From Nitrospinota bacterium (GTDB lineage: Bacteria; Nitrospinota_A; UBA7883; JACRGQ01): a stretch of 64,000 nt of DNA. Under the pieces are notes generated by a model. The model was not told the origin of the DNA and did not search any database. It saw only the letters and a list, made by a program, of their open reading frames with translations. This document shows, piece by piece, positions 46,568 to 60,000 of the stretch. The stretch is taken from contig JAOUMJ010000001.1 of NCBI GenBank assembly GCA_029881495.1, positions 62,001 through 126,000 on the forward strand. Reading direction: 5' to 3'. The translations under genes were made by a program, and so were the position numbers. Numbering within the stretch: the first letter of the stretch is position 1; every line of letters begins with the position of its first letter.

Positions 46568-46662
46568 TCCAATTCACCAACAGGACAGGTGCGTCCGCAT
46601 TTCACGCTCTTTCCGCACACTGTTGAGTCTTGAATAGATTTTTTTAGAGGATTGGTATTTTG

Positions 46663-47976
46663 ATGCGTATTTACATGGCAATTGCCATTTTAATGATGTC
46701 CGCCTCCACTACCGCGTTTGGGCTGGAGGAGGCTAAAGGTTCGTCTGACGGGAAGACCATGCTTCCGGAGATCGCAGGTTTTTCCGACTACGCGCGGAGA
46801 CTTTTCAATACCCACCCGGATTTGAAAAGTCTGGACGCATCTCTCGAAGCGGTGAAGAACGTGCCGGCGAGGGCCTATTCCCTTTCCAATCCGGAAATCT
46901 CGTTTGGGTTGATGAACGTCCCTGTTGGCTCATATTCCCTTTCAGACGAAGGGATGACACAGAAAACTGTGGGGGTCTCCCAGAAATTTCCCGCGCCCGG
47001 CAAAAGAGGATTGATGAAACAGATCGCCAAGGATGACGTGGAAATCCAATCGGCTCTAATCCCGGAAAAGAGGCTTGAACTGATAGAGAAGGTTTCGATA
47101 CTTTTCCTGGAGCTGGAATATCTGCAAAAGGCGAGGCGGGTTGTCAAATATAACACTTCCGTCATGGAAGGTTTTGTGAAGGTTGCCCTTGCGAAATATA
47201 CGGTCGGCGCCGGGTTGCAACAGGATGTATTGCATGCCCAGACGGAGGTATCAAAGATGAGCGCATATCTGCTGGAGTTGGAGGAACGGTCAGGGATAGT
47301 TACAGCGAATCTTCTCCTGCTGGCTGACCTGCCGGAAGGGACCGATCTGGGAAGGGTTAAACTCCCGGATTACCAGATACCTTCTGGTGGAGCAGAGGAA
47401 CTCGAGGCTCTGGCGGAAGGGGGTCGCCCGCTGTTCTCCTCTTTGCGGAGCAGGATAGAGAAAGCGGAAAGGAACGTGAAGCTTTCCCGGAAGGATATGC
47501 TGCCGGACTACATGGTAAGCCTTACCTACGGGCAACGTGATGATATTCCGGTTACAAAGGACGACCTGGCATCCGGTATGTTGACGCTTTCCGTGCCGCT
47601 TTGGAGCAATTCAAGGCAGAAACGGAAAATCGCTGAAGACTACATGCGCGTCGAGGAAGCAAGGGAGATGTACAATTCTGAAAAACAGAGATTGCGCATA
47701 GCTATCGCGGAATTGACTGCCGCTGAAAGCCACAAGGCTAAAATACTTGCCGTTTATGATGAAGGGCTTCTCCAGCAGGCGTCACAAACTGTGGACGCTA
47801 CCTTGTCGGCCTATCAGGTAAACAAGGTAGATTTTCTTACGCTTGTCACAAACCAGGTATCCCTTTTCAACTACGGGATTAAGCGTGACCAGATCAATTT
47901 TCAGCGCAAGGCATCAATAGTTCGACTGATGCGTGTGCTGGGCGAACTGCCTACGGAGGTTGCAAATGTCGAATGA
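46663..47976 (+). CDS. Outer-membrane efflux protein, CusC/CzcC (TolC family)
   Basis: A 437-residue TolC-family outer-membrane channel: signal peptide (MAIAILMMSASTTAFG), two repeated helical-barrel halves (LEYLQKARRVVKYNTS; LRIAIAELTAAESHKAKI) and NPEISFGLMNVP near the start. I use the ATG at 46663, one codon after an in-frame TTG. It overlaps the next gene by 11 bases and forms the outer part of a Cus/Czc-type tripartite metal pump. Confidence 0.88.
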   Translation: MRIYMAIAILMMSASTTAFGLEEAKGSSDGKTMLPEIAGFSDYARRLFNTHPDLKSLDASLEAVKNVPARAYSLSNPEISFGLMNVPVGSYSLSDEGMTQKTVGVSQKFPAPGKRGLMKQIAKDDVEIQSALIPEKRLELIEKVSILFLELEYLQKARRVVKYNTSVMEGFVKVALAKYTVGAGLQQDVLHAQTEVSKMSAYLLELEERSGIVTANLLLLADLPEGTDLGRVKLPDYQIPSGGAEELEALAEGGRPLFSSLRSRIEKAERNVKLSRKDMLPDYMVSLTYGQRDDIPVTKDDLASGMLTLSVPLWSNSRQKRKIAEDYMRVEEAREMYNSEKQRLRIAIAELTAAESHKAKILAVYDEGLLQQASQTVDATLSAYQVNKVDFLTLVTNQVSLFNYGIKRDQINFQRKASIVRLMRVLGELPTEVANVE

Positions 47977-49417
47977 AAAGAGTTCCGAATTTTACAGGAG
48001 AAGATTTATTGCGATCCTTCTGGCCTCATTCATCCTTGGGGGGCTTTACCTGGCGCGACACCCAATAGAGCGGATTTTTTCAGGCGACCGGAAAATGGCG
48101 GAAAAATCTGTAGCGGTCAATGAGGAGCGGAAGATCAAATACTGGGTTGCTCCGATGGACCCTTCCTTTCGTTCCGATAAGCCGGGCAAGTCACCCATGG
48201 GGATGGATCTGGTCCCGGTGTATGAGGATGACCCGTCAGGCGGCAGAGGCGTAAGAATAGACGCCGCCGTTGAGCAGAGCATAGGCGTGAAGCGTGCAAA
48301 GGTTGAGATTCGCGAAATTTCCAAGGCGATAAAAACTGCCGGACGAGTCACTTATGACGAGAGGAAGATAGTGCGTGTAGAGAGCAAAACAAAAGGCTGG
48401 ATAGAGAAATTATACGTCGATTCCACTGGACAGACCGTCAAGAATCACGATTACCTGCTTGAGATATACAGTCCAGAGCTTGTGGCCACTTCCGAGGAGT
48501 TCATCCTCGCCCTCGGTTATCGTGACGCTATTGGGAAGAGCCAGATTAATAATGTCGTCAAGGGGGGGGAGGCTCTCCTCGAGGCGTCGCGACGACGTCT
48601 GGAATTTTTCGATGTCCCTGAACACCAGATAAATGAGATGGAAAAAACCCGAAAGGTGAAAAAGACACTTCATATCCACTCCCCGGTCAACGGCGTGGTA
48701 ACGGATAAAAATGTCGTTACCGGAATGCATGTCGCGCCGGGCATGGTTCTGTATACGATTGTCGATCTATCGACCGTATGGGTCATCGCGGAGATATATG
48801 AGTATGAAATACCCTGGGTAAGGGAAGGGCAGAATGTGTCCATGGAACTGCGTTCGATGCCGGGGAAGGTTTTCTCCGGAAAGGTAGCCTATATCTACCC
48901 CTACATGGAGGAAAAGACAAGAACCGTACAGGTGAGAATGGAATTTGACAACACTGACCTTGATCTAAAGCCGGAGATGTATGCCGATGTGGAGATACTT
49001 TCCGACGTACGCAGGAAAGGCGTGGCTGTTCCGAAAGGGGCGGTCATCAGGTCCGGCTCGAAGAGCATAGTCGTGCTCTCCAAAGGTTCCGGTTTCTATG
49101 AACCGCTTGAGGTGCGGCTTGGAGTCGAAGGGGGGGATTATTACGAGGTGATGGAAGGGCTCAATGAGGGTGATGAAGTGGTCACTTCCGCGAATTTCCT
49201 TATCGATTCCGAGAGTAACCTGAAAAGCGCTGTAAGCGGAATGTTGAAGACAGGAAAGATTGACGGGAATAGAGGGGTGAACAGCGGTGCCAGGATGGAG
49301 ATGGAACGTCAGGATGATCCCAAACCAGATATGGATCACTCAAGCATGGATCATTCAAAAATGCCGCAACCCGAAATGGATCATTCAAAGATGGAGATGG
49401 ATCATGGAAAACATTAA
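47966..49417 (+). CDS. Efflux periplasmic adaptor (CusB type) with metal-binding ends
   Basis: The start at 47966 (MSNEKSSEFYRRRF) has GGAGG at the right distance. The 483 residues begin with a membrane anchor and a heavy-metal-binding module (YWVAPMDPSFRSDKPGKSPMGMDLVPVYED region). Then come the usual lipoyl, hairpin and barrel domains of the membrane fusion family. The last 35 residues are a Met/His/Asp-rich tail with repeated MDHSxM units. It links the RND pump to the outer channel and probably ferries Cu(I) or Ag(I). Confidence 0.9.
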   Translation: MSNEKSSEFYRRRFIAILLASFILGGLYLARHPIERIFSGDRKMAEKSVAVNEERKIKYWVAPMDPSFRSDKPGKSPMGMDLVPVYEDDPSGGRGVRIDAAVEQSIGVKRAKVEIREISKAIKTAGRVTYDERKIVRVESKTKGWIEKLYVDSTGQTVKNHDYLLEIYSPELVATSEEFILALGYRDAIGKSQINNVVKGGEALLEASRRRLEFFDVPEHQINEMEKTRKVKKTLHIHSPVNGVVTDKNVVTGMHVAPGMVLYTIVDLSTVWVIAEIYEYEIPWVREGQNVSMELRSMPGKVFSGKVAYIYPYMEEKTRTVQVRMEFDNTDLDLKPEMYADVEILSDVRRKGVAVPKGAVIRSGSKSIVVLSKGSGFYEPLEVRLGVEGGDYYEVMEGLNEGDEVVTSANFLIDSESNLKSAVSGMLKTGKIDGNRGVNSGARMEMERQDDPKPDMDHSSMDHSKMPQPEMDHSKMEMDHGKH

Positions 49418-49442
49418 GGCGTTGCCATGCGGAGATAATTAA

Positions 49443-52400
49443 ATGCTGGGGAAAATAATCGAGTGGTCGGTGAAAAACCGGTCAATGGTTTTGCTGGCGA
49501 CAGCTTTTACAGTGCTCGCCGGGTACTATTCCCTGAAAAGTTTGCCTCTCGACGCGATACCTGATCTAAGCGATGTCCAGGTCATTGTTTACACAAAATA
49601 CAAGGGGCAAGCCCCTCAGGTCGTGGAGGATCAGGTAACCTATCCAGTTTCCACTACTATGCTAGCGGTCCCTTTTGCCAAGGTTGTAAGGGGATACTCT
49701 TTTTTCGGAGTTTCGTTTGTATATGTGATTTTCGAAGACGGGACCGACCTCTACTGGGCGAGATCCCGCGTTCTGGAACAGTTAAGCGCCGTATCGCAGA
49801 AATTGCCTGAAGGGGTAATGCCGGAGCTTGGGCCAGATGCAACAGGGGTAGGCTGGATTTACCAGTACGCGATCGTGGATAAAACCGGCAGGCGCGACCT
49901 CTCGGAGCTTCGATCCATTCAGGATTGGTATTTGAAATTCGAACTTCAGACCGTGCCGGGCGTGGCGGAAGTCGCATCGCTGGGGGGATTCGTAAAGCAG
50001 TATCAGGTGGAGGTAAACCCGAACCAGCTTCAATCGCTCGGAATTCCGATTACCAAGGTTGGAGCCGCGATAAGGAACAGCAACTCCGATACCGGGGGGA
50101 GGCTCCTTGAAATGGCGGAAACGGAATTCATGGTGACCGGGCGGGGATACATACACGGCATTGAGGATATTGAAAATATAGTCCTCGATGTGAGCAAGAC
50201 CGGTGTACCGGTCTACCTGAAGGATGTCGCAACGGTAAGGCTTGGCCCGGAGCTGAGAAGAGGGGTGACGGATCTCAATGGCGAAGGTGATGTCGCCTCG
50301 GGGGTTGTTGTGATGCGCTATGGCGAGAACGCGCTTGAGACCATACGGCGCGTCAAGGAGAGACTGGAAGAGCTGAAATCCGGTCTCCCCGAAGGGGTTG
50401 AGATCGTCCCGGTCTATGACAGGTCGTCCCTCATCAAAAGGGCTATATCGTTCCTTAAAGATAAACTGGTGGAAGAGATGGTTGTAGTTTCCCTCGTCTG
50501 CATGATTTTCCTAATGCATGTTCGATCGGCGCTGGTGGCGGTTCTCTCCCTGCCGGTAGGGATACTTATTGCGTTCATCATCATGAAATGGCAGGGGATA
50601 AACGCAAACATCATGTCTCTTGGCGGGATAGCCATCGCCATCGGAGCGATGATCGACGGCGCTATCGTAATGATTGAGAACGGCCACAAGCACCTGGAGC
50701 GGGATGGCGGGAAAAAGGAAAGAATAGATATCATTATTGAATCTGCAAAAGAGGTGGGACCATCCCTTTTCTTCTCCCTTCTGATTATCACCGTTTCATT
50801 TATGCCGGTATTCGCGTTACAGGCGCAGGAAGGGAGGCTCTTTTCCCCGCTTGCATTCACCAAGACGTATTCGATGGCCGCCGCAGCCTTCATAACGATC
50901 ACCCTTGTCCCGGCTTTAATGCTTATATTCGTTAAAGGGGATATAGTCCCGGAGAAAAAAAATCCTATCAACAACTTTCTGATAGGGATTGTCTCTCCCA
51001 TGATACGTTTTTCGCTTGGGAGGAGGAGGGGCGTAGCGGCGGCAGTCCTCCTTCTGTTTGCTACAAGTATTTATCCCGTATATAAAACCGGGTCGGAGTT
51101 CATGCCACCGCTCAATGAAGGGGACATACTTTACATGCCAACGACTCTGCCTGGAGTTTCCATAGCCAAGGCAAAGGAGATTTTGCAGCAGACCGACAGG
51201 ATCATAAAAACATTTCCTGAAGTAGTAACCGTCTTTGGAAAGGCTGGAAGGGCGGAAACGGCAACCGATCCCGCGCCTCTCTCCATGATAGAGACGACCG
51301 TAACCCTGAAACCGAAGGAGGAGTGGCGCAAAGGTTTGACGATGAGCGGGCTGATGTCCGAAATGAACGAGGCGATAAACTTCCCCGGCCTGACCAACGC
51401 ATGGACAATGCCGATAAAAACACGCATAGATATGCTGGCGACCGGTATTAAAACTCCGGTGGGGATAAAGATCGCAGGCAACGACCTTGAAGAACTTCAG
51501 ACTATCGGGCGCGAAATCGAAACCATATTAAGAGCAGTTCCCGGTACGCTGTCGGTCTACGCGGAGCGGACCGCAGGGGGCAATTACCTCGATTTCGTGA
51601 TTGACAGGCGCGCCGCTGCACGTTACGGCCTCCTCGTTGGCGACATACAGGCGGTTATAGCCTCGGCAATAGGGGGGATGAACGTGACCGAAACCGTGGA
51701 GGGGCGCGAGCGGTATCCGGTAAACGTCAGGTACAGCCGTGATCTTCGGGATAATATGGAAGACCTCAAGAGGGTGCTTGTGCCTACAAAATCTGGGGAA
51801 CGAATTCCCCTTGCTCAGATCGCTGAAATCAAGCTGAGAAAGGGCCCGGGCATGATAAAAAGCGATAACGCCCGACTGAACGCGTATGTCTATGTCGATT
51901 TAAAAAGCAGTGACGTTGGGGGATATGTAAAAAAGGCAAAGGGGGCACTTGAAGAGAGATTGAAGCTTCCGCCTGGCGTTTCGCTGTCATGGAGCGGGCA
52001 GTTTGAATATATGGAGCGGGCAAAAAAGAGGCTCATGCTTGTTGTTCCTTTTACGTTGATTATCATTTTCCTCCTCCTTTTTATAAATTTCAGACGGATC
52101 AGCGACAGTCTTATAGTCATGCTGTCTATACCGTTCGCGTTGGTTGGATCTGCATGGCTGGTGTGGGCGCTGGGTTACCACTATTCGGTCGCCATCGGCG
52201 TGGGAATGATAGCTCTCGCTGGGGTGGCGGCGGAGATTGGCGTACTGGTACTTTTATACATAAACAATGAGATAAAAGCGAGAAAGCCCGAAAGCCGAAA
52301 GGAGCTGGTCGAAGCAGTCATCTCAGGCACGGTCGAAAGAGTTCGTCCGATAATTATGACGGCGGCCGCTGTCATTGGCGGACTTCTCCCTATCATGTGG

Positions 52401-52547
52401 GGCGGCGGCACCGGTTCCGAAGTGATGAAGCGGATCGCTACACCGATGATTGGAGGGATGGTAACGACAGTGATGATATGTCTGCTTGTTCTTCCGGTTG
52501 TCTATGTGGCTGTGTACGGGAGAGAATATCCCGGAGATGACAAGTGA
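49443..52547 (+). CDS. CusA/CzcA family heavy-metal RND transporter
   Basis: A 1034-residue inner-membrane RND pump driven by protons. It opens MLGKIIEWSVKNRSMVLLATAFTVLAGYYSL, has about twelve membrane helices in two halves with large periplasmic loops, and carries family signatures such as PLDAIPDLSDVQVIV, DGAIVMIENGHKHLE and GVAAEIGVLVLLYINNEI. The accompanying Met/His-rich adaptor favours copper or silver (Cus) over zinc, cobalt or cadmium (Czc), but the metal is inferred. It is 25 bases after the adaptor gene. Confidence 0.92.
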   Translation: MLGKIIEWSVKNRSMVLLATAFTVLAGYYSLKSLPLDAIPDLSDVQVIVYTKYKGQAPQVVEDQVTYPVSTTMLAVPFAKVVRGYSFFGVSFVYVIFEDGTDLYWARSRVLEQLSAVSQKLPEGVMPELGPDATGVGWIYQYAIVDKTGRRDLSELRSIQDWYLKFELQTVPGVAEVASLGGFVKQYQVEVNPNQLQSLGIPITKVGAAIRNSNSDTGGRLLEMAETEFMVTGRGYIHGIEDIENIVLDVSKTGVPVYLKDVATVRLGPELRRGVTDLNGEGDVASGVVVMRYGENALETIRRVKERLEELKSGLPEGVEIVPVYDRSSLIKRAISFLKDKLVEEMVVVSLVCMIFLMHVRSALVAVLSLPVGILIAFIIMKWQGINANIMSLGGIAIAIGAMIDGAIVMIENGHKHLERDGGKKERIDIIIESAKEVGPSLFFSLLIITVSFMPVFALQAQEGRLFSPLAFTKTYSMAAAAFITITLVPALMLIFVKGDIVPEKKNPINNFLIGIVSPMIRFSLGRRRGVAAAVLLLFATSIYPVYKTGSEFMPPLNEGDILYMPTTLPGVSIAKAKEILQQTDRIIKTFPEVVTVFGKAGRAETATDPAPLSMIETTVTLKPKEEWRKGLTMSGLMSEMNEAINFPGLTNAWTMPIKTRIDMLATGIKTPVGIKIAGNDLEELQTIGREIETILRAVPGTLSVYAERTAGGNYLDFVIDRRAAARYGLLVGDIQAVIASAIGGMNVTETVEGRERYPVNVRYSRDLRDNMEDLKRVLVPTKSGERIPLAQIAEIKLRKGPGMIKSDNARLNAYVYVDLKSSDVGGYVKKAKGALEERLKLPPGVSLSWSGQFEYMERAKKRLMLVVPFTLIIIFLLLFINFRRISDSLIVMLSIPFALVGSAWLVWALGYHYSVAIGVGMIALAGVAAEIGVLVLLYINNEIKARKPESRKELVEAVISGTVERVRPIIMTAAAVIGGLLPIMWGGGTGSEVMKRIATPMIGGMVTTVMICLLVLPVVYVAVYGREYPGDDK

Positions 52548-52710: not shown

Positions 52711-53355
52711 ATGAAGGAAAATATTTTGGTAGTTGATGATAACCAAAGTATTCTGCAGATCGTAAGCGTGAAGATGGGGAAAGCAGGATACGCAGTAACG
52801 ACAGCCGAAAGCGGAGCAGAGGCGCTAAAGTTAATTACAAACGGTTCCGCCGGAATCGACATAATACTCCTCGACCAGATGATGCCTGAGATGGACGGTA
52901 TGGAAACATTTGGCAAAATTAAGGCCCATAGCCCAAACCTCCCGGTAATTATGCTGACCGGCCACGGCTCATTAAATCTGGCGATAGCATTCATGAAGGA
53001 AGGGGGTGCAGATTTTATCGAAAAACCGGTAGATTTCAGCATTCTGGAGGTGAAAATAAGGCAGGCGCTGGCAAAATCCGACTTGCAAAAGGAGATGGCC
53101 GTTTTAAAGGCTGAAAGAGCCTCGCTTTCAGGCACGCTTGAAATAATCGGGGAATTGACCCATAAGATAAATAATCCTCTGAATACGCTTTTTACTCACG
53201 TTGGTCTGATGATCGAAAAAAAGGAATGCATTGGCAATGCTGAAAAACTTCAGGACGCAATGGACAAGATCCATCTTGTTCTGATTGAACTTGAAAAGAC
53301 GCTGGAAGAGAAAAAGGAAAAGATCGAGAAAGGCCTGAATTCCATTCGGAACTAG
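52711..53355 (+). CDS. Receiver domain joined to a DHp-like helix pair without a kinase domain
   Basis: A 214-residue protein. Residues 1-120 are a receiver with Asp55 as phosphoacceptor, D9-D10 and Lys105. The rest carries GELTHKINNPLNTLFTHVGL with His151, an H-box of the HisKA dimerisation type, then an amphipathic helix (ELEKTLEEKKEKIEKG). No ATPase domain follows, so it could accept phosphate on both Asp and His, or act as a phosphorelay or dimerisation decoy. GGAG precedes the ATG. Its location between the Cus operon and the pilB-like gene gives no firm partner. Confidence 0.8.
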   Translation: MKENILVVDDNQSILQIVSVKMGKAGYAVTTAESGAEALKLITNGSAGIDIILLDQMMPEMDGMETFGKIKAHSPNLPVIMLTGHGSLNLAIAFMKEGGADFIEKPVDFSILEVKIRQALAKSDLQKEMAVLKAERASLSGTLEIIGELTHKINNPLNTLFTHVGLMIEKKECIGNAEKLQDAMDKIHLVLIELEKTLEEKKEKIEKGLNSIRN

Positions 53356-53625: not shown

Positions 53626-55818
53626 ATGGCGGTTACGAAAGGTCAGTCCAGCTTTAAAAAGACCATCCAGGATGAAACCAGGCATGAAAAGCTTGGTGAC
53701 ATGCTCAGGAAGGATGGGCGAATTACCGGGCGCCAGCTGAAACTGGCCGAGGAAGTTCAAAAAAAGAAGAGCGACTGGATAGGAAATATATTAATACAGC
53801 TCGGTTTCATTACCGAGGACGCGCTTGTCAACTTTATCTCGAAAAATCTTACGGTAGCAGTATTCGACGCAAAAAATGACTCCGTCTCCCCTGCGGCCGT
53901 AAAACTTGTTGAGTACAAAACCGCCAAGGACAATATGCTTATCCCTGTCGAGACCGACGGGAAGAGCCTGATTCTGGCCATGCGGGATCCTACCAATTTC
54001 AAGGCGATCGAATTTGTCGCGGGATCTACCAAGCTGTCAGTAAAAACAAAAGTCATAAGATTGCAGGATCTCGCGGACGCCTATAAGGCCAATTACAAGA
54101 TATCAGATGAAGAATACAAGACGCTGTTCCCCAAAAAGAAAGAGGATGAGGATAAACAGCAGGAAGAAGCTACTTCAGAAGTCTCTTTCGATCTTGGCGA
54201 GATAATAACCAGCGCTGAGGAAGAGCTCGAAATTGCCGGTGACGAGGATATAGGTCCAGATGAGATAACCGCCGGCGATGCGGCGATCGTCAAGCTTGTC
54301 AACGGTATCCTGATCAACTCGGTGAAAAAGGGGAGTTCTGATATCCACATAGAGCCTTATGAGAAGAAACTTCGCGTACGGTATCGCGGCGACGGAAAAT
54401 TGAGCGAAGACATGCAGCTCCCTCTGCAAATGAAGAACGCGCTCATATCAAGAATAAAGATCATGGCAAACCTGAATATCGCCGAAAAACGGGTCCCCCA
54501 GGATGGGCGAATAAAAATCAGGATAGGCGGCGGGAAGGTGGTCGATTTCCGCGTTTCCGTACTCCCTACTCTCTTCGGAGAGTCGGTCGTTATGCGACTC
54601 CTCGATCAGAGCAAGCTCCAGGTAGATATGACGAGGCTCGGATTCTCGGAAGTAGGATTGGCAAAGTTCAACAGGGCGATCGAGGCGCCACAGGGGATGG
54701 TACTGGTAACAGGCCCTACCGGTTCGGGTAAAACGAATACGCTTTACTCCGCGATAAACGCATTGAATAAGGAAGACGTCAAGATACTTACAGCGGAAGA
54801 TCCTGTCGAGTTCAACTTTGAGGGGATTAACCAGGTGCAGGTGCGAAATGAAGTCGGGATGACGTTCGCCGCCGCCCTGAAGGCGTTCCTGAGGCAGGAT
54901 CCGGAAATAATCCTGGTGGGAGAAATAAGAGATATTGAAACTGCGGAGATAGCCATCAAGGCCGCCATGACCGGGCATCTGGTCTTCAGCACGCTTCATA
55001 CCAACGATTGTCCTTCGACGATAGGAAGGCTCCTTGATATAGGCATCCCCGGCTTCATGATCTCATCTTCCCTTGTTATGGTTGTTGCTCAGAGGCTTTT
55101 GAGGAAGATGTGCCCGGAGTGCAAGGAAGAAGTGAACAAATATTCTCCGCAACAGCTGTTGGACATGGGATTCCACAAGGAAGAGCTTGCGAGCTTGAAA
55201 ATATATCAGGGTACCGGGTGCCCGAAATGCAACGGCGGATACAAGGGACGTCTCGGCTGTTTCGAGATCATGGAAGTAAACGAAGAGTTGAAGACTGCGA
55301 TAACCGCGCAGGTCCCGGAAGATCAGCTGAGAAAAATCGCCATCAAGGAGGGGATGAAGACACTTCGCCGGGACGGTCTGGACAAGGTTGCGGAAGGGAT
55401 TACTACTATCGACGAGGTGTTGGCAAAAACTGTTCTTCAGAAGGAGGCACTCCCCGCGTACCTGCTTACTCCGGATGAGCTTGTTTTCGAGGATGGAGAT
55501 CTCATTATCCGGGAAGGGAACACGGACAAGAACTTCTATCAGCTGTTGCAGGGCGCGCTGGTAATAATCAAAAATGGCAGGGTTGTGGGAGAGATAACCC
55601 AGCCTGAGGAGTATTTTGGCGAAATGTCCGCATTGTTGAATCAGCCGAGAGTAGCGACCATCAAATCCAAAGGAAAGAGCGTTGTAAAGGTATTTCCAGG
55701 AGAAAAACTTGAAGAGACCCTCGCGAACCATCCTGATATCTCGCTTAGGATAGTTAAATCACTGATAGGCAGACTTACCGAAGCTGACAGGCTCCTTGCG
55801 AGGCTTTTGGAAAAATAA
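53626..55818 (+). CDS. PilB/GspE-type secretion ATPase with C-terminal cyclic-nucleotide-binding domain
   Basis: The 730-residue protein starts with an MshEN-like domain (LGDMLRKDGRITGRQLKLAEE, about 23-90), then the hexameric ATPase with Walker A GPTGSGKTNTLYS near 363-370, AEDPVEFNFEGINQVQV, Walker B IILVGEIRDIETAEIA and a tetra-Cys zinc site (CPECKEEV, CPKCNGGYKGRLG). From about 612 to the end is a cyclic-nucleotide-binding (CRP-like) barrel (FEDGDLIIREGNTDKNFYQLL, VGEITQPEEYFGEMSALL). Such a fusion is not standard for PilB or GspE. It would let a nucleotide or other ligand control a type IV pilus or secretion motor. No other pilus genes are in view. Confidence 0.92.
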   Translation: MAVTKGQSSFKKTIQDETRHEKLGDMLRKDGRITGRQLKLAEEVQKKKSDWIGNILIQLGFITEDALVNFISKNLTVAVFDAKNDSVSPAAVKLVEYKTAKDNMLIPVETDGKSLILAMRDPTNFKAIEFVAGSTKLSVKTKVIRLQDLADAYKANYKISDEEYKTLFPKKKEDEDKQQEEATSEVSFDLGEIITSAEEELEIAGDEDIGPDEITAGDAAIVKLVNGILINSVKKGSSDIHIEPYEKKLRVRYRGDGKLSEDMQLPLQMKNALISRIKIMANLNIAEKRVPQDGRIKIRIGGGKVVDFRVSVLPTLFGESVVMRLLDQSKLQVDMTRLGFSEVGLAKFNRAIEAPQGMVLVTGPTGSGKTNTLYSAINALNKEDVKILTAEDPVEFNFEGINQVQVRNEVGMTFAAALKAFLRQDPEIILVGEIRDIETAEIAIKAAMTGHLVFSTLHTNDCPSTIGRLLDIGIPGFMISSSLVMVVAQRLLRKMCPECKEEVNKYSPQQLLDMGFHKEELASLKIYQGTGCPKCNGGYKGRLGCFEIMEVNEELKTAITAQVPEDQLRKIAIKEGMKTLRRDGLDKVAEGITTIDEVLAKTVLQKEALPAYLLTPDELVFEDGDLIIREGNTDKNFYQLLQGALVIIKNGRVVGEITQPEEYFGEMSALLNQPRVATIKSKGKSVVKVFPGEKLEETLANHPDISLRIVKSLIGRLTEADRLLARLLEK

Positions 55819-55847: not shown

Positions 55848-57425
55848 ATGGCAAAAAAATATATTTTCTTTCTCCTGTGCGTCATATGCGTTTTATGCGA
55901 AACCGCCGATATCGCCTATTCGCAAAAGCCTGCCGGTGAAAACGGTTCCGATATCGTCATTGGCGAGAAGGAAGCTCTCCTCATAGCCCTGAAAAACAAT
56001 TTTGATATCTTAATTACCCGGTCCGTTCCTCAGATAGGGGAAAGAAATCTCGGGCTGGCAGAATCGGAATTCGACCTTTCCCTCTATGGATCAGTGAACC
56101 GCACAAATAGCATTACCCCCTCCACATCAGTATTCGCAAATCCGGAGGTTGGCGAACAGTTCAAGGAGACATATTCTGTCGGTGTAAGGCAGAAGCTGAA
56201 ACCGGGAACCAGGGTGGAGCTTGCATACGAAAAATCGACCACAGAGACAAATTCCACTTTCTCTGGGGTGAATCCGCAGTTTGACAACTATCTCAAATTG
56301 TCCATCAATCAGCCTTTGATGAAAGGGATGGGCCTCGACGTGAATAACACAAACGTCTACATCGCCAAAAACAGCATGAAGATTGACGAGAACGAATACC
56401 GGATGAGGGTAATGGACGTTCTCTCAAAGGTGAGGGATACATACTGGGACACGGTTTACCTTAGCAAGGAGCTGGAGGTTCAAAAAGAGTCGCTCGCCTT
56501 GGCGATAGATTTCCGGGAAAGAATAAAGTTGCAGGTAAAAGTCGGCGCGCTGGCTCCCATAGATATCGTAGCGGCTGAAGCATCGGTTGCGCTTCGGGAA
56601 GAAGCGCTGATAGATATTGACGAAATGATCCAGAATAACCAGGACGCGCTCAAGGCGATGCTGAATATGCGGGAGGCGAGACCCGGTTCGCCTGTCAGGA
56701 TCGTTCCGAAGGACGAACCTCTCTTCAAGGCTGTAAAGGCGGATGTCGAGTCGCTGAAGAAAACAGCCTACGAGAACAGACCCGATTTCAAAAAGGCTCA
56801 GCTTCTAGTGGATATGAGAAGAAGAGAGTTGAAGTACAACAAAAATCAGCTCCTTCCGACAGTTGATTTGCAGGGCTCGGTGAGGCTGAAGGGTGTCCGC
56901 GGTGAAGGGCAGGAGGTTGTGGGGCTTGACGGTAAACCGGTGGTCAGCAATTTCGCCGGGACACAATCCGATTCTCTTGAGGATATGAAAAAAGGGGATT
57001 ACTACGATTACTCCGTCGGCGTAGTGGCTGAAATGCCGCTGTTCAACAGGCCGGGGAGGCACCGGGCGGCAAAATCAAGGCTTGAAACCGAGATGGCGGA
57101 GAACTCCCTATTAAATGCCAGGCAGGCGATAGATGTCGGAATTCACAAGGTCGTAAGGGAGGTTGAAACGGCGGAGAAGCGGATATCGGCCAGCAAACTG
57201 TCGTTAAAGCTTGCGGAAAAGAAGCTGGAAGCGGAAGTGAAGAAGTATGAAGTAGGCTCCTCCACAAGTTTTGCGGTTCTGGAATACCAGAAGGATCTTG
57301 CCGCGGAAAAGACAAAGGCGATAAAGGCGGTAATAGATCATATCAAGGCTCTTTCGCACATGGAGCTGGCGACGGGGACTCTCCTCGATAAAAACAACAT
57401 ATCGCTGGAATTTAACGGCGAGTGA
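55848..57425 (+). CDS. TolC-family outer-membrane efflux protein
   Basis: A 525-residue outer-membrane channel protein with a signal peptide (YIFFLLCVICVLCETADIAYS), two repeats of paired helices (RVMDVLSKVRDTYWDTVYL; AEKKLEAEVKKYEVGSS) and the beta-barrel strand YDYSVGVVAEMPLFNR. No adaptor or pump gene is adjacent. Instead it is 29 bases after the secretion ATPase and overlaps a sigma-54 regulator by four bases, so it may serve a dedicated export system with unknown partners. Confidence 0.88.
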   Translation: MAKKYIFFLLCVICVLCETADIAYSQKPAGENGSDIVIGEKEALLIALKNNFDILITRSVPQIGERNLGLAESEFDLSLYGSVNRTNSITPSTSVFANPEVGEQFKETYSVGVRQKLKPGTRVELAYEKSTTETNSTFSGVNPQFDNYLKLSINQPLMKGMGLDVNNTNVYIAKNSMKIDENEYRMRVMDVLSKVRDTYWDTVYLSKELEVQKESLALAIDFRERIKLQVKVGALAPIDIVAAEASVALREEALIDIDEMIQNNQDALKAMLNMREARPGSPVRIVPKDEPLFKAVKADVESLKKTAYENRPDFKKAQLLVDMRRRELKYNKNQLLPTVDLQGSVRLKGVRGEGQEVVGLDGKPVVSNFAGTQSDSLEDMKKGDYYDYSVGVVAEMPLFNRPGRHRAAKSRLETEMAENSLLNARQAIDVGIHKVVREVETAEKRISASKLSLKLAEKKLEAEVKKYEVGSSTSFAVLEYQKDLAAEKTKAIKAVIDHIKALSHMELATGTLLDKNNISLEFNGE

Positions 57426-58777
57426 ATCTCCCAAAAGTACTTGTTTATGAAACCGACTATCACAGGGCCTCAAGACTATGCAGAATTCTTGAAAGCGGGG
57501 GATATGTAACCCGCTCGGTTTTTTCCAGAAATGAAGCTGAAGGGGGGGGCAAAGGTTTCGATATCATTATCGCCTCGTTTGACCTCTTCCCTTTACCGCA
57601 GTTTTTCGACGGGATGGACAAGATCATCTCCGCTCCCCCCGCATTTTTCGACAGTGTGGAAAAGCTTGCCAAGCAGTACAATGCCCCCTGCGTAACCCAT
57701 CCCTATAATGCAGGCGAAGTCCTCCCGATAGTAGGCGCCGTCGCCGAAAAGGTTGAACAGTCCTGGTCTACCAGCGGTGCGACCGAAACAGTCGAATCGG
57801 ATTTGTTTCCTGAAATAATCGGGAATTCCCCGCAGATAAAAAGCATGAAGGAAATGCTTGTGCTGGCGGCGAGGTCGGACAGCACGATCCTCATCCTGGG
57901 GGAGACAGGAACGGGAAAAGAGCTGGTGGCTTCGGCGATCCACCGGATGAGTAAAAGATCGAAAGGCCCTTTCGTGGCTGTGAATTGCGGCGCGTTTGCC
58001 GAAGGACTTCTTGAAACGGAACTGTTCGGACATGAAAGGGGAGCGTTCACTGGAGCAGTTAAAAAACATATGGGTAAGTTCGAACTGTCGGATGGGGGGA
58101 CGTTATTCCTAGACGAGGTTGGCGAAATGTCGAAGGCGCTTCAGCAAAAACTCCTCAGGGTGCTGGAGCAGGGGAATTTCTACAGGGTAGGAGGAGAGCT
58201 CTCGGTGAACGTGGATGTGCGCGTAGTATGTGCGACAAACAGGGATATCTTCGATATGGCCCAAAAGGGGGAATTCAGGAGGGATCTTCTTTACAGGCTG
58301 AACGTCCTCGCTTTGAAGGTTCCTTCACTTCGAAGCCGCGGGGGGGACAAGGAGTTTCTTGCGAGAATATTCCTCGACAGATATTCGAAAAGATACGGGA
58401 AGAGTATCGTCGCCCTATCTGAAAAAGTGGTAACGATGATCAACGAATATACCTTCCCCGGAAATGTGAGAGAACTTATGCACGCCGTTGAACAAGCGGT
58501 TTTACGAACGCACGGCGATGTTATAGATGACATTGAGTTCGGCGGAAGATCGATGATGGACAGATGGAATCCTCCGGTGATGGACGGGCTGCTGGCAAAG
58601 GAGTTTGCTGATATGAAAAACTCCGTACTCGAAGCGTATGAGAAGGAGTATCTTGACAGGCTCCTCGCTCTGGAAAAAGGCTCGCTCCAAAAAGTCTGCA
58701 AGAGATGCGGTCTTGACCGAAAGACGCTCTACAGGAAGATGAAACAGTACGGTCTGGATAAAAAGGGTTATAAATGA
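57422..58777 (+). CDS. Sigma-54-dependent activator with degenerate receiver
   Basis: The start GTG overlaps the TolC stop. Residues 1-110 look like a receiver fold ([36 protein letters not shown]) but lack the normal acidic pocket and phosphoacceptor Asp, so it is a pseudo-receiver. The AAA+ part is complete: GETGTGKEL near 160-168, the sigma-54 loop GAFTGA near 207-212, [20 protein letters not shown], and a Fis-like helix-turn-helix at the end ([23 protein letters not shown]). It is therefore a bona fide sigma-54 activator, probably controlled by something other than a kinase. It overlaps the next gene by four bases. Confidence 0.9.
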
Positions 58778-60000
58778 CAAAACTCTTTATTCCGGCAATT
58801 CACCTGCCGAACGGACGGGACCTTTTCCGCATGTTGCCGTACACACCGTCGGATTATAAGAAGGTTCTAAAGGGTTATGGCGAGCGGAGCCTTCTGGAAT
58901 CGACGCCGGAAGATTTCATTGCGCTTGCCGCAATGCCGGAAGAGGCATATCTCGATTTCCTGTTGTCTGCCGGGATGGGGACACAAAATATTATTCTGTG
59001 CCCCGGCAGGGAGAGCAACATTGCGGGGGATATTCTGGCTGATAAGGAAGTCTTTTCGCAAATTGAAAAGGCATCGGAAAAATGCACAGGGCTTTCTTTC
59101 TATATTCATCTTGAAGAAGAGAACGAGATAGCGGAAAAACTCGCGCGCAAGGAGGAAATTATGCATCCAGCGTTGACCAGGATGTTCAACCGCTACTATT
59201 TCCTTATACGGATTTGCGAGGATCTAGATATTGAATTGAATGAGAGCGTACAGTTGCGTTCCGGAAGGTTCCTGAAGTCGGCAAGGAGGCTTCTGGAAGA
59301 ATGGGGGAAGATATTCGTGCGCGGTAACGAATCTGTTGGCGGGATGCATGCCTTTGCGATCGACGATGAAGCAAACCTGCGTAGGATAGCGGATGCGATA
59401 TCACGGAACGTGAAGATAACCAGATATTTCGTCTCCAGGTATATGAATGTCGATACGAGCTGGAACGTCCAATTTCTGTTTGATGACAGTGGATATACTT
59501 TTTACGGATCAAGCAGACAGATAGTTTCCGGCGGAACTGCCCATGTAGGCAACGAAGGGGGGGCGGGTAATGCTCTGCCGGACGAAGTTTTAAAGCTTTG
59601 CACAAAAATCGCCGACAGGCTGGGCTCGATGGGAGCGAAGGGGCTGATTGGTATTGATGTCATGTCGGCGGACGGCAAGCTCTTTCCGGCGGAGATAAAC
59701 GCGAGGAGAAATACATCCACGCCAGCGCTCTGTCTATATGAAAGGTTAGCCCGCAATGGAGTGGGTGAAAACCTTTTCTTCCGGGTGATGAGCTTGGATA
59801 CACCAGGAGGGACAGGGTTCAATGAGTTCGCAGGGTTGATAGGAAAAGAAAACCTGTTTGATATCAAATCGGCGCGGGGGCTTATCCCTTATCATTTCGC
59901 TTCAAGCAGGGTAACCGGGAAAATTGACGCGGTGTTCTTTTCAGATTCAAAAGAAGAACTAAATGCCATAGTCATGGAGGTGTCTGAACGGCTTGAATGA
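58774..60000 (+). CDS. ATP-grasp superfamily ligase of unknown substrate
   Basis: The 408-residue protein has an N-terminal helical part and an ATP-grasp-like C-terminal region (YGSSRQIVSGGTAHVGNEGGAGNALP, GLIGIDVMSADGKLFPAEINARRNTSTPAL). The EINAR(R)NTST segment is the metal/ATP-binding end of the fold. I cannot name its substrate. It is translationally coupled to the sigma-54 activator and 49 bases before a UbiA-type transferase, so it may act on a lipid- or peptide-linked product of the same pathway. Confidence 0.8.
   Translation: MTKLFIPAIHLPNGRDLFRMLPYTPSDYKKVLKGYGERSLLESTPEDFIALAAMPEEAYLDFLLSAGMGTQNIILCPGRESNIAGDILADKEVFSQIEKASEKCTGLSFYIHLEEENEIAEKLARKEEIMHPALTRMFNRYYFLIRICEDLDIELNESVQLRSGRFLKSARRLLEEWGKIFVRGNESVGGMHAFAIDDEANLRRIADAISRNVKITRYFVSRYMNVDTSWNVQFLFDDSGYTFYGSSRQIVSGGTAHVGNEGGAGNALPDEVLKLCTKIADRLGSMGAKGLIGIDVMSADGKLFPAEINARRNTSTPALCLYERLARNGVGENLFFRVMSLDTPGGTGFNEFAGLIGKENLFDIKSARGLIPYHFASSRVTGKIDAVFFSDSKEELNAIVMEVSERLE

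Follow-up and report, generated by a model that had tools for sequence, protein, structure and literature searches.

The window, a stretch of 64,000 nucleotides from a Nitrospinota contig, carries a gene predicted to encode a type IV pilus ATPase that continues, in the same reading frame, into a cyclic-nucleotide-binding (CNB) domain. The gene, its domains and motifs and the three genes downstream of it are as follows:

53626..55818, + strand: fused PilB-CNB gene, 730 aa, predicted extension ATPase of a type IVa pilus that ends in a cyclic-nucleotide-binding domain
53689..54102, + strand: MshEN N-terminal domain, residues 22-159 (PF05157 at residues 78-159, NF053729 at residues 22-73)
54271..55422, + strand: T2SSE/PilB ATPase core, residues 216-599 (PF00437, 9e-136; TIGR02538, 711 bits)
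54712..54735, + strand: Walker A, GPTGSGKT, residues 363-370
54910..54933, + strand: Walker B, ILVGEIRD, residues 429-436
55111..55230, + strand: zinc site with two CxxC motifs, C496-PE-C499 and C532-PK-C535
55429..55479, + strand: conserved ATPase-CNB junction TVLQKEALPAYLLTPDE, residues 602-618 (mean column identity 0.88 in 40 relatives)
55459..55818, + strand: CNB domain and C-terminal helix, residues 612-730 plus stop (PF00027; structural model; TM 0.83 to CRP)
55615..55662, + strand: phosphate-binding cassette, F664-G665-E666 ... R675-V-A-T-I679 (from the alignment with CRP and PKG)
55771..55773, + strand: C-helix residue R716, which the alignment pairs with Arg123 of E. coli CRP
55848..57425, + strand: TolC-like outer membrane efflux protein (OEP) gene (PF02321), about 30 bp downstream of the fused pilB, conserved in Nitrospinota
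57422..58777, + strand: sigma-54 activator-like gene (PF00158), conserved neighbour in the host family
58774..60000, + strand: ATP-grasp gene (PF02655, at the cut-off), conserved neighbour

In the 730-aa protein, Pfam matches cover residues 78-159 (MshEN), 216-599 (T2SSE, E=9e-136) and 620-702 (cNMP_binding, E=6.4e-14); the last of these, with 52 bits against a cut-off of 27.5, lies far from a chance match. Chance similarity of the CNB region was ruled out by the E-values and the fold. Asp and His boxes are present beside the Walker motifs and the zinc CxxC pairs; all four zinc cysteines are invariant in 19 full-length relatives, and in the alignment of full-length relatives the invariant columns include the catalytic and zinc residues. 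The sequence-only reading had described a CRP-like barrel behind a complete secretion ATPase with a zinc site and an MshEN domain, which is borne out by Pfam, NCBIfam, the motifs and the model. It had placed the barrel at 55470-55818, which is accurate within a few codons; counted together with its junction, the domain covers about 55459-55818.

With 710.8 bits, the fused protein exceeds the curated cut-off (675.65) of TIGR02538, the NCBIfam model of type IV-A PilB. An identity as GspE of a type II secretion system was rejected, as it reached 552 bits against a GspE cut-off of 630 while lying above that of PilB. Its closest solved relative is PilB of Myxococcus xanthus (PDB 3jc8, E=6e-164), with which it shares MshEN, N2D, the ATPase core and the zinc site. 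Besides two PilT, the host genome encodes five GspE/PilB-type ATPases, of which only the fused protein exceeds the PilB cut-off; the four other paralogues scored 514-584 bits with the PilB model, two of them exceed the GspE cut-off and three are encoded next or close to a PilC/GspF of their own. Judged by these matches, the product of ORF 53626-55818 is a complete type IVa PilB ATPase. While an ordinary PilB ends soon after the ATPase domain (the unfused homologues compared have tails of 2-13 residues, one of 43), the fused PilB of the host adds a complete CNB.

Using a profile that spans the junction, we searched 24 Nitrospinota genomes and 361 other sampled genomes. The fusion was found as a single ORF in 21 of the former and in three of the latter; the three Nitrospinota genomes without a detected fusion are G014, G017 and G021, and the assemblies of the last two are incomplete. 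Among the first 60 relatives it occurs throughout the family and class of the host. A search of a genome collection uncovered 61 PilB-CNB loci, assigned by their record titles to Nitrospinota/Nitrospirae, Tectomicrobia and Deltaproteobacteria (among the last Candidatus Adiutrix and strain Smac51, a complete chromosome), and in every sufficiently long ORF among them the CNB is preceded in frame by Walker A. An assembly or frameshift artefact was rejected, since dozens of assemblies that are independent of one another, the complete chromosome CP026657.1 among them, have the same single ORF. The survey of the architecture, named as a check in the sequence-only reading, thus places the fusion across Nitrospinota, in some Desulfobacterota (Adiutrix and others) and in Tectomicrobia. 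In a tree of PilB ATPase cores all fused sequences group together; because node support is low (0.38), a single origin is only suggested. Desulfobacterota of the termite-gut type (Adiutrix-type; L088, L090, L103, L111 and others) carry after the CNB a Pro/Ala-rich low-complexity tail of about 200 aa or more, and several of these tails end in a similar motif, MxPADQTQLxIxKEAAPAAKILREVR.

Within Nitrospinota, the fused pilB is usually followed by the TolC-like and ATP-grasp genes, with the sigma-54 activator gene between these two in the host family. Upstream in the window, a gene at 52711-53355 encodes a response regulator receiver and, behind it, about 90 aa with a histidine-kinase-like stretch, LTHKINNPLNTLF, and no ATPase domain; a response-regulator gene like it also lies upstream of the fused pilB in locus L056. 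Farther upstream, 46660-52547 is occupied by a heavy-metal RND efflux operon of the CusABC/CzcABC type, whose adaptor protein bears a heavy-metal-binding domain.

The likely pilus partners of the fused protein lie elsewhere in the genome. On contig C44 the host has a locus with the gene order pilT, zinc-ribbon gene, CNB gene, pilC and pilS and with no pilB, which is the only type IVa pilus (T4aP) locus seen in this host. The best NCBIfam model for its PilC is Myxococcus PilC, but the score is under the strict cut-off, and its kinase is of the PilS type (6TM_PilS). PilC of the C44 type was found in 23 of 24 Nitrospinota genomes with at least 58% identity, in two of them as fragments or split, and 21 of these 23 genomes also have the fusion; G017 and G021 have this PilC without a detected fusion. 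In a relative from the Desulfobacterota (L078), pilC (53%) and pilS (33%) come immediately after the fused gene. The lack of pilB at the C44 locus, the co-occurrence with PilC and the adjacency to pilC and pilS in L078 together make it likely that the fused protein powers extension of the C44-type T4aP. One gene of this locus encodes a second CNB protein:

L125:8620-9039 (host contig C44): stand-alone CNB protein, 139 aa (PF00027, 5.7e-21; cassette FGEMGLFQDKMR intact)

It sits downstream of pilT, between the zinc-ribbon gene and pilC, and was present at the pilT-pilC locus in each of the 11 host-family genomes; in the 11 readable genomes of other families, no stand-alone CNB gene was found at the pilC locus. 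An ORF at L125:95-889 translates into a tandemly repeated peptide (TISPGSIGFSLWCVRRTQFEIGGKQ...) and is probably a non-coding repeat array.

The C-terminal 125 residues of the fused protein were modelled with AlphaFold from a 40-row alignment. Besides the barrel, this confident model (pLDDT 91, pTM 0.80) shows the short helix of the cassette, helix B and a long helix C. Its Foldseek neighbours include cAMP-bound PKA-R, P. aeruginosa Vfr with cAMP, HCN and SthK, and TM-scores of up to 0.83 were reached with the CRPs of E. coli and M. tuberculosis in complex with cAMP; the solved neighbours are mostly cAMP- or cGMP-bound CNBs. Sequence searches with this region matched PKG and PKA-R down to 8e-19. 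As a pairwise BLASTP of the fused PilB against E. coli CRP gave no useful alignment, multiple alignment and fold search were used instead. The cassette reads Y-F664-G-E666-MSALLNQP-R675-VAT. Its E666 and R675 coincide with the E and R of PKG in phmmer alignments and align with Glu72 and Arg82 of E. coli CRP in the multiple alignment, in which R716 aligns with Arg123. The spacing of nine residues from G665-E666 to R675 matches that of PKA-R and PKG. Among 40 aligned sequences, in which the relatives are 50-86% identical to the host sequence, F664, G665, E666, R675 and R716 are identical throughout, and the residues flanking R675 vary (P/R/A/T/K/V before it and T/S/V/A/N/G/P after it, V in the fused PilB studied). 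The sequence-only reading had asked for the intactness of the cassette by structure prediction: the model has a complete barrel, the cassette, invariant in the 40 relatives, is intact, and the absence of a ligand pocket, by which that reading would have left the barrel a structural role, is not seen in the model. By sequence and model, then, the CNB of the fused PilB is complete with an intact phosphate-binding cassette. It has the fold, phosphate-binding cassette, hinge and C-helix of the CNBs (PF00027) of CRP, PKA-R and PKG, and differs in its output, which there is a DNA-binding domain, a kinase or a channel and here a predicted hexameric pilus motor.

Conservation along the protein is uneven. 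Mean column identity among 23 fused sequences is 0.85 in the CNB, 0.84 in the ATPase core, 0.71 in the zinc domain and 0.62 in MshEN, so that the CNB equals the ATPase core and exceeds MshEN. With a value of 0.88 among 40 relatives, the junction (TVLxKEALPAYLLNPDE) is among the most conserved parts and has no linker of variable length, which suggests that the CNB is attached in a fixed manner and not loosely tethered. The full-length AlphaFold model is poor (pLDDT 62, pTM 0.32) and cannot place the CNB on the ATPase.

The same conservation bears on the possibility that the barrel binds no nucleotide and is a docking or oligomerisation module, recruiting a partner or orienting PilB at PilC. The most conserved stretches of the CNB include the junction KExLPxYLLNPDE (0.88) and VKVFPGDKL, which resemble protein contacts, and two divergent members (G055 L183 and G109 L184) have F-S in place of A-T after the cassette Arg. 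There is also a precedent in cyanobacterial PilB1, likewise a PilB with a lineage-specific C-terminal regulatory extension, which is reported to bind and recruit Hfq and for which no CNB has been described (PMC7690835). However, F664, G665, E666, R675 and R716 are invariant even in the divergent members. The host genome has 12 other CNB matches, and the cassette is gone in about three of them, which indicates that it can decay when not needed; a ligand-free barrel would be expected to have lost some cassette residues likewise, and we consider such a role unlikely. Two similar stand-alone CNB proteins of the host (L053 and L055) have degenerate cassettes with Gly-Glu and Arg replaced and are possibly ligand-independent.

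If a ligand is bound, its identity has to be weighed. Thr127 and Ser128, the base-contacting residues of CRP, are not conserved in PilB-CNB sequences (A/T/S and D/N/G/S, respectively), so a preference for cAMP over other cyclic mononucleotides is not readable from the sequence. The domain might bind cGMP, cUMP/cCMP or even c-di-GMP, which is the reported ligand of the CRP homologue Clp. Apicomplexan cGMP-dependent kinases are among the best sequence matches, the cassette Arg is followed by T or S in 30 of the 40 aligned sequences, and the fold search with the CNB also matched Pseudovibrio PycTIR and Xanthomonas CLP. Yet the fused PilB studied has V, not T or S, after R675, and E. coli CRP binds cAMP in spite of the Ser at this place. 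The cyclases of the host also speak against another ligand, as they carry the adenine-type Lys. Its genome has five matches to PF00211 (class III cyclase), of which at least three have the two metal Asp and the base-contacting Lys, two of them with the base Asp as well. Taking the metal-binding Asp pair and this Lys as marks of adenylate cyclases, at least three look like complete class III adenylate cyclases. Taken together, we regard a ligand other than cAMP as improbable. A PF00211 cyclase was detected in all 24 fusion-bearing genomes out of 27 tested; this co-occurrence is weak evidence because adenylate cyclases and CNB domains are common. The sole genome of the 27 without a cyclase, G014, lacks the fusion and the C44-type PilC as well, which counts for little in a single small genome.

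At the other end of the protein, MshEN is of the same type and in the same place as in MshE-like ATPases, where Arg9, Gln32 and Gln61 were reported as c-di-GMP contacts (PMC5013675). In motif I of the fused PilB, Arg9 is replaced by K22 and the hydrophobic Leu position is E42; in motif II, Arg38 is replaced by W51 and Gln61 by N74. The two RLGxx...LxxxLxxQ motifs of c-di-GMP receptors are not found, with the match retained at the domain level. Among 19 orthologues, the Arg9 position is K, V, I, L or R, the Arg38 position is R, W, F and others, and the Gln61 position is Q in 11. With these key residues changed or lost and variable in the family, binding of c-di-GMP by this MshEN appears doubtful. 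A motor in which one ATPase integrates two signals, c-di-GMP read by MshEN and cAMP read by the CNB, could still be proposed since both domains are present, NF053729, the c-di-GMP motif model, just passes (42 versus 38 bits, 4 bits over the cut-off) and the host has 10 GGDEF matches. The changes at K22, W51, N74 and E42, the variation among orthologues and the fact that Arg9 and Gln61 are ligand contacts in MshE (PMC5013675) make it quite improbable. Of the two nucleotide signals that the sequence-only reading had envisaged, the one at the CNB stands with its intact, invariant cassette, and the one at MshEN meets a degenerate, variable motif (R9K, R38W, Q61N). The sequences reverse the emphasis of that reading, as the N-terminal site is eroding while the C-terminal cassette is fixed; in MshE the contacts lie in MshEN, whereas the fused PilB has them changed and holds a conserved ligand cassette in its C-terminal domain. 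A 157-aa CNB protein of the host (C9:74784-75666, L052), encoded on the opposite strand, adjoins a GGDEF gene and hints at another link between cyclic mononucleotides and c-di-GMP.

We favour a cAMP-gated PilB, and it seems rather probable that PilB is switched, through the junction, by a cyclic mononucleotide (probably cAMP) bound to the CNB. A CNB of the CRP/PKA type is grafted onto the end of the ATPase domain of a predicted type IVa pilus extension motor, where it would bind a cyclic mononucleotide, most likely cAMP from the class III adenylate cyclases of the cell. Once the ligand is bound, helices B and C of the CNB would be rearranged, and the short, rigid, conserved junction would pass this change on to the PilB hexamer, whose ATPase activity, or docking on PilC, would be altered as a result. 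Ligand binding, cAMP as the ligand, transmission to the ATPase and the sign of the regulation are what we infer in this scheme. Pilus extension could then track the level of the cyclic nucleotide without new transcription, and Nitrospinota and some Desulfobacterota would probably control it directly by a small signalling nucleotide.

PilB and CNB domains are both known, and the novelty is their fusion, of which we found no description in the open-access literature text. That text assigns direct control of pilus motors to c-di-GMP, PilZ and FimX, and cAMP to transcription; a 2024 review of PilB control mentions cAMP only at the transcription level, through Vfr, and neither a CNB nor a cAMP receptor within the motor (PMC11656802). 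The fused PilB has second-messenger control of pilus extension in common with cAMP-Vfr and PilB-PilZ-FimX (PMC11656802, PMC8389850), but cAMP acts on transcription through Vfr, while here the candidate cAMP receptor is inside the motor. If this is true, cAMP would act on pilus extension directly and post-translationally, through a receptor borne by the motor, in lineages that have almost no cultivated members. More tentatively, it is possible that these proteins form an undescribed class of T4P motor, a direct allosteric receptor of cAMP or another cyclic mononucleotide in which c-di-GMP sensing at MshEN has largely been replaced, and which the host family pairs with a second CNB protein, whose gene lies between those of the retraction ATPase and platform protein. 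With such paired CNB proteins, one cyclic nucleotide could set extension against retraction in the host family.
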